Positions 47,115 to 54,905 of a stretch of 64,000 nucleotides of DNA are shown here, one piece after another. Under the pieces are notes generated by a model. That model saw only the letters and a program-made list of their open reading frames with translations. It made no database searches and was not told the origin of the DNA. The DNA lies in assembly GCA_040221175.1 (NCBI GenBank), contig JAVJVK010000004.1, forward strand, positions 186,001-250,000. Direction: 5' to 3'. The first letter of the stretch is position 1. Every line of letters begins with the position of its first letter. The DNA comes from Phycisphaerales bacterium (GTDB taxonomy: Bacteria; Planctomycetota; Phycisphaerae; Phycisphaerales; UBA1924). The position numbers were made by a program, and so were the translations under genes.

Positions 47115-47822
47115 TTACCTGCGGCCCCGGCTGCGAACGCGGGCGCCCGCGGCCTTCGAGGTGGTCTCTTCGTCCTGGGCCTCGTACTCACCCTTGTAGA
47201 TCCACACCTTCACGCCGATGCGGCCGGCAGTGGTGCGGGCTTCCTCGAAGCCGTAGTCGATGTTCGCCTGCAACGTCGAGAGCGGCAGTGCTCCCAGACG
47301 CACGTCCAGGCGGCGGCTCATCTCGGCGCCGCCCAGGCGACCGGAAATCTGGATCTTCACGCCCTTGGCGCCATTCTGCATCACACTCTCAGCACGCATC
47401 TTCACCACGCGGCGGAAGCTGCTGCGCCGGCTGAGCTGTTCGGCCACGTTGGCAGCCACGAGCTGGGCGCTCATGTCGGGGTTCTTGATCTCGATGATCT
47501 TGATCGAGACCTTGCGGCCGGTCATGAGCTGGAGCTCTTCGGTCATCCGCTCGACCTCAGCGCCCTTGGGGCCGATCACCACGCCCGGGCGAGCCGTACG
47601 GATGAGCACGACCAATTCCTCGCGGGTGCGCTCGATCTCCACGCTCGCGACGGCGGCGTGGGGGCGACCCGGGTTGCGGTTGAGCCGCTTGTCCAGGTAC
47701 TCGCGGATCTTCTGGTCTTCGACCAGCAACTCGCCGTAGATCGCCTTGGGGGCGTACCAGCGGCTGCGGTGGGCTTCGGTGACTCCCAGGCGGAAGCCGA
47801 AGGGGTGGATCTTCTGTCCCAT
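47115..47822 (-). CDS. rpsC: Ribosomal protein uS3
   Basis: A 235-residue small-subunit protein at the mRNA entry. MGQKIHPFGFRLGVTEAHRS starts it. The KH-domain motif VIGPKGAEVERMTEEL is intact (VIGxxG), and the C-terminal ARTTAGRIGVKVWIYKGEYE is typical. The ATG overlaps the rplV stop (TAATG). Confidence 0.97.
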   Translation of the reverse strand: MGQKIHPFGFRLGVTEAHRSRWYAPKAIYGELLVEDQKIREYLDKRLNRNPGRPHAAVASVEIERTREELVVLIRTARPGVVIGPKGAEVERMTEELQLMTGRKVSIKIIEIKNPDMSAQLVAANVAEQLSRRSSFRRVVKMRAESVMQNGAKGVKIQISGRLGGAEMSRRLDVRLGALPLSTLQANIDYGFEEARTTAGRIGVKVWIYKGEYEAQDEETTSKAAGARVRSRGRR

Positions 47823-48367
47823 TACGCTCGCTCCTGGACGCCCACGGTAATGTGGCTGGTCTGCTTGATGATCGGGTGGGCCCGGCCGCGGTCCTTGGGG
47901 CGGAATCGCTTGATCTGAGGGCCCTCGTCGACGCGGCTCTCCACGACGAACAACTCGGTCACGTCCGCGTCGGCCTGCTCGGCGTCGGCAATGGCCGCGT
48001 TCAGGGCCTTTGACATGTTGTCCGAAGCACGCTTCTGGCTGAAGTTCAGCAGGTTGAGCGCCTCGTCCACGGACTTGCCGCGGATCAGGTCGGCAACCAG
48101 CCGAGCCTTCTGCGTGCTGCCGCGGTGGAAGCGGACCTCGCTGACGAAGCGGGCGATGTCCCGCGGCTCGGCGTTAACTACGCGGGCCAGGGCACGAATA
48201 TGCGCCGCCTTGCACGTGGGCTTGGGGCGGCCCGCCAGCCAATTGCGCACGGCGCTCTCGGCCTTGGCGCCCGGCAGCCCGAGCGGACGGACAGCCTCGG
48301 CGAGGGCCTCGACGCTGGCGCCGGCCTCGTCGGCAAACTTCTTGAGTTGATCGCTACGCAGTCTCAC
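47822..48367 (-). CDS. rplV: Ribosomal protein uL22 with XRE-like HTH extension
   Basis: A 181-residue protein in which the normal uL22 (VRFHRGSTQKARLVADLIRG to IKQTSHITVGV) begins only near residue 78. The first 75 residues look like an XRE/Cro-type helix-turn-helix: DQLKKFADEAGASVEALAEA, then AESAVRNWLAGRPKPT, then AAHIRALARVVNAEPRDIARF. This order (helix, recognition-like helix, helix) matches the usual lambda-repressor-like pattern. The start is GTG (48365-48367) with GGAG 8 nt upstream. The only other in-frame start codon before the uL22 core is a GTG inside the extension at 48247, without a Shine-Dalgarno, so the extension seems to be translated with uL22. Flanking genes rpsS and rpsC are normal. 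Confidence 0.93.
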   Translation of the reverse strand: MRLRSDQLKKFADEAGASVEALAEAVRPLGLPGAKAESAVRNWLAGRPKPTCKAAHIRALARVVNAEPRDIARFVSEVRFHRGSTQKARLVADLIRGKSVDEALNLLNFSQKRASDNMSKALNAAIADAEQADADVTELFVVESRVDEGPQIKRFRPKDRGRAHPIIKQTSHITVGVQERA

Positions 48368-48447
48368 CGATGGATCTCCGAAGTCGTCCGTTTCCTGTCA
48401 CGCATCGAATCGAAAAGTCACGAATCCGCTCTTGCCTCAGGCCGGGC

Positions 48448-48732
48448 CTACTTGCCCGACTTGATGCCTTCCTTCTTGTTCGTGTGGCCCCGGAAGGTGC
48501 GCGTCAGCGAGAACTCGCCGAGCTTGTGGCCCACCATGTCCTCGGTCACGAACACCTCCAGGAAGGCACGGCCGTTGTGCACCTGGAACGTGTGGCCCAC
48601 GAACTCGGGCACGATCGTGCTCCGCCGGGCCCAGGTTTTGATGGGCTCGCGCTCGCCCGACTCCTGCTGCTTCATCACCTTCGTGTACAGCTTCTCGTCG
48701 ACGAACGGACCCTTCTTGAGGCTACGACCCAT
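48448..48732 (-). CDS. rpsS: Ribosomal protein uS19
   Basis: A 94-residue small-subunit head protein. [39 protein letters not shown] and the [20 protein letters not shown] motif are diagnostic. Normal length, between rplB and rplV. Confidence 0.97.
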
Positions 48733-51754: not shown

Positions 51755-52063
51755 TCAGGCCTTGATCTTCACGAACACGCCCGCGGGCACCACCAGCCGA
51801 TTCAACGCCTCGACCGTGCGGGCGTTGGGCTCGTGGATGTCGATGATCCGCTTATGCGTGCGGATCTCGAACTGCTCGCGGCTCTTTTTGTCAATGAACG
51901 GACCACGGAGAACCGTGTACCGCTCGATGCGAGTCGGCAGGGGGACCGGACCGGCTACGCGAGCATTGGTCCGCTTGGCGTGGTCCACGATCTCCCGAGC
52001 CGAAGCATCGAGGGCGATGTGGTCGTACGCTTCCATCCGAATTCGAATGCGACCGCCTTGCAT
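51755..52063 (-). CDS. rpsJ: Ribosomal protein uS10
   Basis: A 102-residue small-subunit protein and first gene of the superoperon; in E. coli it also acts as NusE in antitermination. [39 protein letters not shown] and [20 protein letters not shown] are diagnostic. The ATG at 52063 is preceded by AGGAGG at about 11 nt. A promoter-like element lies about 110 bp upstream. Confidence 0.96.
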
Positions 52064-52174
52064 GAGCCGGCCAACCTCCTGCCTGCTGGGTTTCGCGTCA
52101 ACCGTCCGGCAACCCCGAACGGCACTGACCCGCACCAGAAGGGGCCGCAGCCCCCCGCCACCGGCGCGGAGAGA

Positions 52175-52202
52175 AGGATAGATCGTCGCGGATCCCCGTC
52201 AA
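52175..52202 (-). promoter_or_regulatory. Promoter of the ribosomal superoperon
   Basis: On the minus strand, -35 TTGACG (52197-52202), a 16-bp spacer and -10 TATCCT (52175-52180), giving a leader of about 105 nt before rpsJ. The hexamers and spacing match the tRNA-Thr/tuf promoter. The rest of the 242-bp divergent gap shows nothing further. Confidence 0.55.
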
Positions 52203-52305
52203 CTGCCCAGCGACAGGAATGTGAAGATCGGGCGATCTTGCCACGTATCCTATCCTTTAAGACAGAGACGCCACGCAGCGACGCGTTCGACCCAAGGAGG
52301 GGCGC

Positions 52306-53784
52306 ATGACTTGTCCGGCACCGGCCCGATTGATCAGATTCGCCCTGCTCACGCTGTCGCTTGCGGCCGCGTTTGCACTGCAGTGCCGGGCTTGGGGGCA
52401 ACAAAGCGGGCCCTCGAGCATCATCATGTCGAACGACCCGGTGGCCCTGGACCCGGTCGGTCTGGAGATCCAGATCCCAGAAGATGCCACGGCGTTTCGC
52501 GCTGATCGCGGGGATATACCTACGATCGAGGTCAGCCCCACCCTGGGCCACTGGTTCCTGCTCGTCCAGGCTCCGCAGCGCCGCGCCGCCCGGCCGAGCG
52601 ACGCCCAGACGCAGGTCGGCGGGAATCTCCGGGTCGACGACCTGACCGATCGCGTGCTCGACAACCTCATGGGCAGCTATCGGGTGGATCAGACTGGCAC
52701 CGAGACCATCGAGAGCCGGGCCCGGGTGCTACTCCGCGAAACCGGCCTGACGGTCGCGGGGCGGCCCGCTTCGAGGTTCTACGTGGCGTTTCCCGAAGCA
52801 GACCGCGAGCGCGTTCGGATGTACACGCTCGTCGACGCGGGCGCCGGTCAGATGGTGAGCTTCGACCTCATGTGCGACCCGCGCGACGAGCGTGAGGCCC
52901 GTATGGCCTATCTGGCGGTGCTCGCCAGCGCCCAGTTTTCGGGCAACACCGAAATTGCCGCGGCGCGGGCCGTCGCCCTCGAAACGACCGAGGCGCTCAT
53001 CGGCTCGCTGACCGAAGCGGACTACCTCGAGGCACTTGACCAGATCGACGGCCGCTGGGATCGGCTGAGCGATGCCTCCGGGACGGGCCTGGAAATGGAC
53101 GACACCGAGCGGGGCTATCGGCGCATCCGTACCTGGAAGGGGCATCGAGGCGAGATCAATCCCGAACGCAGCAGGGAGTCCTGGTCGCAGGAAGAGCAGG
53201 AAGAGGGCTATCTCGTCCGCATGGATGGTCGGATGATCGAACGAACCCTTGGCGGCACGTGGAACATCATCGACACTCGAATCATCTGCTTCATGAGCCC
53301 GGATCGGAGCAAGGAGGCCTGGACCGCCTCGACGACCTTCCGCCAGGGAGAGCAGAAGCCCATCGTGAACACCGAATTCGGCGTTCGCGTGGGCGAAGAA
53401 ATGCGGGTCGCCCGCCGCGGCATCACTTCGAACACCTTCCAGCCGGCCGTGCCGCCCCGCGGGTACGTGAACCAGGTGGAGTTCTATCTGTTGCCCCAGT
53501 TGCTCATCGGACAAGGCGCCAAGGCGAGCTATGGCGTGTATGCATACGCCAGCGGTGACACGAGCGTCCGCTACCGCCAGTTCGACCTCGAGGAGGGCGC
53601 CGGCGCCGCGTCGTGGCAACTGAGCACCGAACTGGGCGACGAGGCAAGATCCGTCTCGCTGTACGACGAAAACGCCGAGTTCCTTGGCAGCGACCGAGGC
53701 GATGGATCGCAGTGGACGCCCTCGAGCCAGCGTGACCTGCTGGATCTGTGGCAACGCAAGGGCCTGCCGACGAGCACTCGATGA
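52306..53784 (+). CDS. Exported protein of unknown function
   Basis: A 492-residue protein with a signal peptide (LIRFALLTLSLAAAFALQCRA). The middle has a beta-rich repetitive character: GLEIQIPEDATAFRADRGDI, LTVAGRPASRFYVAFPEA, RMYTLVDAGAGQMVSFDLMC. The C-terminal half includes WEASTTFRQGE-like strands (WTASTTFRQGEQKPIVNTEF), similar to surface proteins of the phylum. AAGGAGG lies 7 nt before the ATG. It precedes ruvB by 68 bp and is divergent from rpsJ. I do not recognise the family. Confidence 0.65.
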   Translation: MTCPAPARLIRFALLTLSLAAAFALQCRAWGQQSGPSSIIMSNDPVALDPVGLEIQIPEDATAFRADRGDIPTIEVSPTLGHWFLLVQAPQRRAARPSDAQTQVGGNLRVDDLTDRVLDNLMGSYRVDQTGTETIESRARVLLRETGLTVAGRPASRFYVAFPEADRERVRMYTLVDAGAGQMVSFDLMCDPRDEREARMAYLAVLASAQFSGNTEIAAARAVALETTEALIGSLTEADYLEALDQIDGRWDRLSDASGTGLEMDDTERGYRRIRTWKGHRGEINPERSRESWSQEEQEEGYLVRMDGRMIERTLGGTWNIIDTRIICFMSPDRSKEAWTASTTFRQGEQKPIVNTEFGVRVGEEMRVARRGITSNTFQPAVPPRGYVNQVEFYLLPQLLIGQGAKASYGVYAYASGDTSVRYRQFDLEEGAGAASWQLSTELGDEARSVSLYDENAEFLGSDRGDGSQWTPSSQRDLLDLWQRKGLPTSTR

Positions 53785-53852: not shown

Positions 53853-54905
53853 ATGGCCCTGGATCGCGTCATCGCCCCCACCGCCACGGACACCGCCGAC
53901 GAGCACGCCGGCTGGGCGCTTCGCCCCCAGCGGTTGGCCGAGTACGTCGGGCAGCGTGACACGCTCGAGCGGCTCGCCATCGCGGTGCAGGCAGCCCGCG
54001 GCCGCGGCGAGTCACTCGACCACGTGCTGCTGCACGGCCCGCCCGGGCTGGGCAAGACCACCCTGGCCCACGTCATTGCTGCCGAGATGGGGACGAAGGT
54101 GCACGTCACCAGCGGACCGGCGCTGTCCCGCGGCACGGACCTGGTGGCAGCGCTGACGCGGCTGGAGTCGGGCGACGTGTTGTTCATCGATGAGATCCAC
54201 CGCACGCCGGCGGCTGTCGAAGAGTTCGTCTACCCAGCCATGGAGGATTTTCGGGTCGATGTCACGCTCGATGCCGGCCTCAATGCTCGGACGGTGCAGA
54301 TCAAATGCAAGCCATTCACGCTGATCGGCGCCACCACGCGGGCCGGCCTCCTGAGCGCTCCGCTGCGCAGCCGCTTCGGCCTGATTCATCACCTGCGGTT
54401 TTATGAAGTCGCCGAACTGGCAGCCATCGTGGAACGCAGCGCGGGCCTGCTGGGACTGAAGATCGAAGCGTCCGCCATCGATGCGATCGCCCGCCGCAGC
54501 CGCGGAACTCCCCGCATCGCCAATCGCCTGCTTCGCCGCGTACGAGACTTTGCATCGGTTCGTGCCGATGGCACCGCGACGGCCGCGACCGTCGACGAGG
54601 CGCTGTCGCTCGAGGGCGTCGACGCGCTCGGCCTGGACGAACTGGACCGCGGCTACCTCCGGACCATCGGCACGACCTACAAGGGCGGACCGGTCGGCCT
54701 GGAGGCACTCGCCGCCACGATGAACGAGGACCCGGGTACGCTGGAGGACATGGTCGAGCCCTTCCTCCTGAAATTGGGCTTCGTCGCCCGCCACCGGCGC
54801 GGCCGGGAGCTGACCGAAGCCGGCGCCTCACACGTGGGCGTCGACGCCCCGGTCAAGCCGGCCACGGACGCTTCACCGCTCTTTGACGACGAGCGGAGCG
54901 CGTGA
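53853..54905 (+). CDS. ruvB: Holliday junction helicase RuvB
   Basis: A 350-residue AAA+ motor that drives branch migration with RuvA. Walker A is GPPGLGKTT (62-70), Walker B LFIDEIH (110-116), and the sensor/arginine-finger region GATTRAGLLSAPLRSRFG is intact. The C-terminal winged-helix domain is present (LDELDRGYLRTIGTTYKGGP, PFLLKLGFVARHRRGRELT). GCAAGGAG precedes the ATG. ruvA and ruvC are not adjacent, which is common. tRNA-Gly follows by 36 bp. Confidence 0.96.
   Translation: MALDRVIAPTATDTADEHAGWALRPQRLAEYVGQRDTLERLAIAVQAARGRGESLDHVLLHGPPGLGKTTLAHVIAAEMGTKVHVTSGPALSRGTDLVAALTRLESGDVLFIDEIHRTPAAVEEFVYPAMEDFRVDVTLDAGLNARTVQIKCKPFTLIGATTRAGLLSAPLRSRFGLIHHLRFYEVAELAAIVERSAGLLGLKIEASAIDAIARRSRGTPRIANRLLRRVRDFASVRADGTATAATVDEALSLEGVDALGLDELDRGYLRTIGTTYKGGPVGLEALAATMNEDPGTLEDMVEPFLLKLGFVARHRRGRELTEAGASHVGVDAPVKPATDASPLFDDERSA

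Follow-up and report, generated by a model that had tools for sequence, protein, structure and literature searches.

The analysed DNA, called the window here, is a stretch of 64,000 nucleotides from contig JAVJVK010000004.1 of a Phycisphaerales bacterium, and its minus strand carries the S10 operon. According to our reading of the open reading frames (ORFs), the genes are presumably uS10, uL3, uL4, uL23, uL2, uS19, uL22, uS3, uL16, uL29, uS17, uL14, uL24, uL5 and further genes in this order. The order is the usual one, and relatives were found for the 12 genes besides uL22 that were used as queries. The uL22 gene (rplV) runs on the minus strand from the GTG at 48367 to the stop codon at 47822–47824 and encodes 181 residues. 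An earlier note on this DNA described it as a fusion gene inside the S10 operon, and the ORF order bears this out, with rpsS on its 5′ side and rpsC on its 3′ side (Table 1). The gap between rpsS and the uL22 gene is 80 nt, and the stop codon of the latter overlaps the ATG of rpsC by one base. A promoter- or terminator-like site was sought in the rpsS–uL22 gap (48367–48460), and none was seen.

The sequence directly 5′ of the GTG is CTTCGGAGATCCATCG, and it contains the good Shine–Dalgarno (SD) sequence claimed for this start (GGAG, Table 1). Start codons were also assigned in 89 aligned uL22 genes with the N-terminal extension described below, by rule and in 15 cases by hand; this set was selected for having the extension and includes the window gene. 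A start at a similar position is possible in 89/89 (GTG in 47, ATG in 42), and an SD-like match of 3–4 nt precedes the upstream start in 85 of the 89. The earlier note saw no supported alternative start before the uL22 core, and the window gene is without a 4-nt SD sequence at any internal start near the core. At the first gene of the operon, the start of uS10 (listed as 51755–52135) is probably the ATG at 52063, which follows AGGAGG, rather than the listed GTG at 52135. On the opposite strand beside the operon, the ORF at 53853–54905 (+) reads like RuvB.

Table 1. Positions of the uL22 gene features and of the adjacent genes in the window
Feature	Position	Strand	Basis
rpsS (uS19), gene 5′ of uL22	48448..48732	-	ORF list
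Shine–Dalgarno GGAG, 8 nt 5′ of the uL22 GTG	48376..48379	-	read off the sequence
N-terminal extension, residues 1–71, predicted five-helix XRE/Cro-type HTH fold	48155..48367	-	AlphaFold2; structure matches; Pfam HTH_31 below cut-off; dN/dS about 0.20
Predicted helix 2 of the HTH, residues 19–29	48281..48313	-	DSSP on the model
Predicted helix 3 ('recognition' helix), residues 33–44, with N42 and W43 inside	48236..48271	-	DSSP on the model; alignment of 89
uL22 core, residues 72–181	47825..48154	-	TIGR01044, 112.9 bits; VIA-align, Z 17 to bacterial uL22 chains
rpsC (uS3), gene 3′ of uL22	47115..47822	-	ORF list

Fold of the extension

The window protein exceeds the cut-offs of both uL22 models, TIGR01044 (112.9 bits vs 73.65) and PF00237 (113.3 bits vs 28). 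By VIA-align, window residues 72–180 correspond to residues 1–110 of solved bacterial uL22 chains with a Z of about 17. As residue 1 of the solved chains is aligned to window residue 72, the extension consists of 71 residues and the core is complete. The protein thus shares with bacterial uL22 (rplV; TIGR01044) the complete core, the fold and the rpsS–rpsC position, whereas the ordinary protein starts at window residue 72 and the window protein adds the predicted 71-residue helix-turn-helix (HTH) domain in front.

Using the alignment of the 89 extended proteins, with the window protein first, as the input of AlphaFold2, the whole protein was predicted with a pLDDT of 94.8 and a pTM of 0.85. 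The pLDDT values of the two blocks are 95 and 97, and the confidence is high across the junction. A structure prediction of the N-terminal residues, which the earlier note had proposed as a check, was run on residues 1–77 alone and also gave the HTH fold (pLDDT 94.3). According to DSSP on the model, the helices of the extension comprise residues 5–15, 19–29, 33–44, 54–63 and 68–71, and they show a lambda-repressor-like arrangement. The segment AESAVRNWLAG, which had been picked out as the recognition-helix region, is located in and just after predicted helix 3.

In the VIA-align search with the extension, XRE-type regulators lead (4jqd_E with Z 9.7, rmsd 4.1 and 70 aligned residues; 7t8i_A with Z 9.1, rmsd 2.1 and 63 aligned residues), and the HTH parts of phosphonate enzymes are close behind (3rzz, Z 8.8). 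The Foldseek matches are weak, with a best E of 0.023 and none below 0.001, and HepD entries form the top rows. Among the matches listed, nearly all belong to one fold class. A Z of 8–10 is insufficient alone for so small a helical domain; the sequence matches agree with the HTH fold. Pfam HTH_31 matches residues 6–73 of the window protein (E 0.0024, 18.6 bits), and with residues 1–77 alone the match improves to E 3.5e-4 and 21.2 bits, still below the curated cut-off of 27. At E ≤ 0.1, HTH_31 is matched by 47 of the 89 aligned members (best 4.4e-7), HTH_26 by 26 and HTH_3 by 21. When ten other members were checked, none exceeded any HTH cut-off (best HTH_3, 21.9 vs 23 bits); HTH_3 or HTH_31 was found at E ≤ 0.01 in three of them, and seven were without such a match. 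Because no Pfam HTH cut-off is reached, our claim concerns an XRE/Cro-type fold and does not extend to any curated XRE family. The extension is confidently predicted to adopt a five-helix lambda-repressor-like (XRE/Cro-type) HTH fold. The earlier description of about 75 residues before the uL22 core as a Cro/XRE-type domain therefore stands, with 71 residues and the fold predicted by AlphaFold2 and VIA-align.

The pattern NW-x-x-G-x-x-x-P after helix 3 occurs in XRE proteins. The window domain has this pattern and the predicted five-helix fold in common with XRE/Cro-C1 HTH domains (HTH_31, HTH_3; C.Csp231I 4jqd/3lfp, SinR and ImmR). It differs from them in being fused to a ribosomal protein, in scoring below the Pfam HTH cut-offs and in forming its own family. 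In the model, helix 68–71 passes directly into the first uL22 strand (72–82) without a flexible linker. As the junction is short and rigid, the HTH should be held at a fixed place.

Other uL22 proteins with additions were compared. The 'L22/unknown domain fusion protein' (NF008917/PRK12279) also consists of uL22 and an added domain. The PRK12279 model has 311 positions and its uL22 part matches at 13–106; its added part is thus on the other side of uL22. The window protein scores 54 bits against this model, vs the equivalog cut-off of 526, and membership was rejected. Chloroplast and mitochondrial uL22 likewise have lineage-specific terminal extensions (PMC5071890, PMC7560712), but the available parts of these two sources describe no HTH fold for them.

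Distribution, conservation and history

A profile of the extension alone was searched against 397 sampled genomes of the class Phycisphaerae, and 137 were positive at E ≤ 1e-5, in open frames of 143–299 residues. The earlier note had proposed to look for the same extension in other rplV genes of the class, and close relatives in the window's family (f1) have it. The match falls on uL22 wherever the place of uL22 was known. One match per genome was found in 136 of the 137; the exception, G704, has two, near the starts of contigs C63 and C192, perhaps an assembly duplicate. At the same threshold no stand-alone relative of the extension was found among the 397 genomes, and at looser limits there were weak, mostly partial matches to the domain from E 4.6e-4 upward. 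The extension is also present in nine metagenome-assembled genomes titled Phycisphaerae, Phycisphaeraceae, Phycisphaerales or Planctomycetota, and the class is named Phycisphaerae here on that basis.

Nine families have the extension (f1, f4, f13, f18, f20, f23, f24, f26 and f27). According to the search tables, 88/88 of their genomes with a uL22 match carry it; two f20 genomes (G142 and G245) are without any uL22 match. In a search of 61 genomes, the match began at query residue 6 or earlier in 36/37 genomes of f1, and the one miss (G026, 82% complete) has no uL22 match at all. All six f4 genomes have a match reaching into the extension. In the 18 genomes of f2, f3, f5 and f6, the matches start at query residue 54 or later. 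Seven sequences were left out of the 89-row alignment, namely L050, L051, L052, L055 and L056 (repeat genomes), L094, in which an open frame is present without a homologous extension, and L096. In L096 (G051, f4), the extension is split by a frameshift with its halves in different frames; the assembly has two contigs, and the split may be a sequencing error or real decay.

In the phylum sample, 372/392 genomes have a uL22 match. Among the matches listed, which reach down to about 113 bits, 22 cover the extension and all are in the class; extended uL22 genes score at least 188 bits, well above that value. The profile of the extension alone matched 22/382 phylum genomes at E ≤ 0.001; in 20 of them, all from the class, the match is uL22, and in the other two it is partial and lies elsewhere. 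One of the two is in the class and not at uL22 (G049). The other, the sole match outside the class at this threshold (G496:C20:42461-42604), covers positions 20–66 of 77 with E 4.6e-6 in an open frame of 912 residues. Extended uL22 outside the class Phycisphaerae was not found in the phylum sample.

The selection on the extension was estimated by the Nei–Gojobori method using 21 pairs from seven genomes of the window's genus. In the extension the median dN/dS is 0.20, against 0.07 in the core, and the extension is under purifying selection. Because of this selection and its presence in all 88 uL22-bearing genomes of the nine families, the extension is not a chance feature. In the 89 sequences, the most conserved columns are W43 (89), N42 (88), P50 (88), A39 (85), A61 (85), L22 (84) and G30 (80). 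The net charge of the extension has a median of +4 and ranges from -2 to +10. Of all columns of the domain, position 37 has the highest entropy (3.41 bits overall), and it is also the most variable of the columns compared inside each clade (H = 3.09 bits both in f1 and in the large clade defined below). When helix 3 is lined up with classical repressors, the base contacts would lie, on our assumed mapping, at residues 37, 38 and 42.

When eleven ribosomal proteins other than uL22 were concatenated and a tree of 61 rows was built from them, the extended genomes fell in three places: f1, f4, and a large clade of f13, f18, f20, f23, f24, f26 and f27. The fork joining f1, f4, f2 and f3 is open in this tree, and the starred branches force only two changes. 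A single clade of all extended genomes was rejected by the concatenated proteins (p 6e-39) and weakly by the uL22 core (p 0.015); the whole uL22 gene was thus not simply passed between the groups. One clade of f1 and f4 was not rejected (p 0.31 with the uL22 core, 0.09 with the concatenated proteins), nor was the order f1–f6 by the uL22 core (p 0.22).

The extensions were also compared between the clades. Their profiles match each other at 40–78 bits (20–75 for the three-row f4 profile), and the best background ORF scores 17.6 bits; this background of 1145 ORFs was drawn from 35 loci, the G049 locus included, and 30 of the loci had been chosen for an HTH_3 match, in ten genomes. The hhalign probabilities between the extensions of the clades are 99.3–99.7%, uncalibrated against other XRE profiles. 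In a tree of the extension, which has few columns, each clade forms one side of a branch with support of 89–98. Judged by these sequence comparisons, the extensions of all clades belong to a single family that is distinct from the sampled XRE loci. The occurrence of one extension family in two or three separate clades suggests that the extension is old, with later losses or transfer. A single old gain would need six losses on the concatenated-protein tree. The history may be one old gain with losses, or the 5′ part of the gene may have been transferred at an early time.

Role of the extension

The protein uL22 is found universally and forms part of the wall of the exit tunnel. We consider that the HTH–uL22 is most likely (at a probability of about 0.6) a fixed lineage-specific part of the 50S subunit which touches rRNA and works like the HTH of MBF1/EDF1 rather than as a sequence-specific repressor. 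Ranked after this reading are a docking module only, a DNA regulator and an untranslated extension; this ranking reflects our judgement and was not computed.

The ribosome-part reading can be described as follows. An XRE/Cro-type HTH would have been fused long ago to the uL22 N-terminus in an ancestor of several Phycisphaerae lineages. The extended uL22 would be assembled into the 50S subunit as any uL22 is, and the HTH would then be positioned close to the tunnel exit on the outer surface. For comparison, the uL22m extensions of the Neurospora mitoribosome, N-terminal helices included, lie in the lower tunnel and the exit region according to the available part of PMC7560712. The basic face of the HTH would touch 23S rRNA, alone or with neighbouring proteins, and the domain would act as the Cro-type HTH of MBF1/EDF1 does on 18S rRNA. 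In the available part of PMC7486125, the Cro-type HTH of EDF1/Mbf1 is held between h16 and h33 of 18S rRNA. A Cro-type HTH, predicted in the window protein, is common to both systems; that of MBF1/EDF1 works on the ribosome bound to rRNA, and a ribosome placement of the window domain is our proposal. MBF1/EDF1 of archaea and eukaryotes is a factor of its own on the small subunit and has an additional MBF1 domain or zinc ribbon at its N-terminus; the same source states that it is not found in bacteria (PMC7486125). In the window protein no MBF1 domain or zinc ribbon precedes the HTH, and the first helix starts at residue 5.

The intact core, the rigid junction modelled with high confidence, the single match in 136 of the 137 genomes, the median charge of +4, the variable position 37 and the lack of a common operator-like repeat before rpsJ in four genomes support the reading as a ribosome part, as do the precedents of Neurospora uL22m, EDF1/Mbf1 and the docking of enzymes on bacterial uL22. 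Against it stand a net charge that falls as low as -2 and the lack of a partner change that tracks the extension in 23S rRNA length, the peptide deformylase tail or the neighbouring ribosomal proteins. A ribosomal protein may also carry an extension with a passive role.

Compensating changes in the surroundings of uL22 were sought. After alignment of 23S rRNA with that of E. coli, the length in none of the 25-nt bins distinguished the six extended genomes from the five non-extended ones. Fourteen genomes had been searched; G059 (no 23S), G067 (fragments) and the second copies of G076 and G102 were left out, and one partial sequence was added. The extended genome G076 (L241, L252) has about 290 nt inserted near E. 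coli 1851–1875, and its second 23S copy, which is 99.3% identical over the whole length, thus has the insert as well. Most of E. coli 1501–1525 is absent in the aligned sequences of f1 (L247, L248, L249), f4 (L242) and f2 (L244), and most of 276–300 is absent only in the three f1 sequences. In the C-terminal ends of 12 neighbouring ribosomal proteins, no length change separates extended from non-extended genomes; the medians are 13 vs 0 for uS3 and -0.5 vs 4 for uL29, with overlapping ranges.

Second in order is the reading of the HTH as a protein–protein module only, which we regard as doubtful. In this reading, a targeting, chaperone, hibernation or anti-stalling factor specific to the lineage would dock on the HTH at the tunnel exit, and the HTH would bind no nucleic acid. 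The phosphonate enzymes HppE, HepD and MPnS are among the closest folds, with HepD leading in Foldseek, and to our knowledge their HTH-like domains bind no DNA. Furthermore, bacterial uL22 already docks peptide deformylase and methionine aminopeptidase, as given in the available part of PMC9099147. However, a candidate partner was not found, and the net charge, positive in most members, is more in keeping with RNA. In peptide deformylase, the C-terminal tail, its known uL22-docking part, does not track the extension: in 30 matches from 29/30 genomes (none in G040), the distance from HExxH to the stop is 34–42 residues in 16/17 copies of extended genomes (22 in the second copy of G234) and 33–51 in the 13 non-extended copies. 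No publication turned up when the literature was searched for a deformylase groove of uL22.

The earlier note had also raised a link between ribosome assembly and transcription control. In its direct form, free unassembled uL22 would bind DNA via the HTH and act as a repressor of its own S10 operon or of further ribosomal genes; a surplus of ribosomal protein would then stop its own synthesis. In other bacteria, ribosomal proteins are well known to control their own operons, mostly at the RNA level. The predicted XRE-type fold keeps the helix-turn-helix geometry, and the gene is itself a member of the S10 operon. Against these points, the usual base-contact position 37 (on the mapping assumed above) is the most variable column, and the junction between HTH and uL22 is short and rigid. 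Upstream of rpsJ, a comparison by eye of the window and three other genomes of the genus revealed a promoter-like and leader sequence common to all four and no common operator-like inverted repeat. Eight inverted repeats are present in the window at 52100–52420, and the three other genomes were searched for the two that lie closest to the promoter-like region. Neither is kept there in the alignment: one is absent in all three, and of the other an arm-like 9-mer occurs once somewhere in L052. The family members L053, L055, L057 and L058 align poorly before rpsJ. The comparison speaks weakly against a shared operator there, and not against DNA binding in general. From the missing common repeat and the variable position 37, which are the outcomes of two small and indirect tests, the link to transcription control does not find support, and repression by free uL22 appears improbable. 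Recruitment for rRNA binding, the other suggestion of the earlier note, would fit better.

A wider proposal is that the HTH carried by uL22 is a nucleic-acid regulator when unassembled or at certain tunnel-exit states, and that binding of DNA or mRNA couples ribosome supply or nascent-chain events to expression. We consider this a long shot; if true, an XRE-type regulator would itself be a universal ribosomal protein. Finally, translation beginning near the uL22 core, with the extension as an illusion of reading frame or annotation, can hardly be the case: an in-frame start codon lies -12 to +7 residues from the core start in 62/89 genes and is preceded by a 4-nt SD in 9/89, but 80/89, the window's included, are without such an SD, and the SD-like matches at the upstream start, the median dN/dS of 0.20, the invariant W43 and the predicted HTH fold all stand against it.

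The fusion and the conservation of HTH–uL22 are solid, and the extension is probably an addition to the surface of the ribosome. Our literature searches, with most subscription journals and bioRxiv preprints outside their coverage, returned no description of an HTH-extended uL22. For a machine as conserved as the ribosome, the gain of an entire folded domain on uL22 and its retention across many families amount to a large change. As extended and non-extended families occur within one class, they offer a clean system for studying the occupants of the tunnel exit. The finding suggests how an XRE-type domain can become a part of the ribosome in bacteria, in parallel to MBF1 in archaea and eukaryotes.
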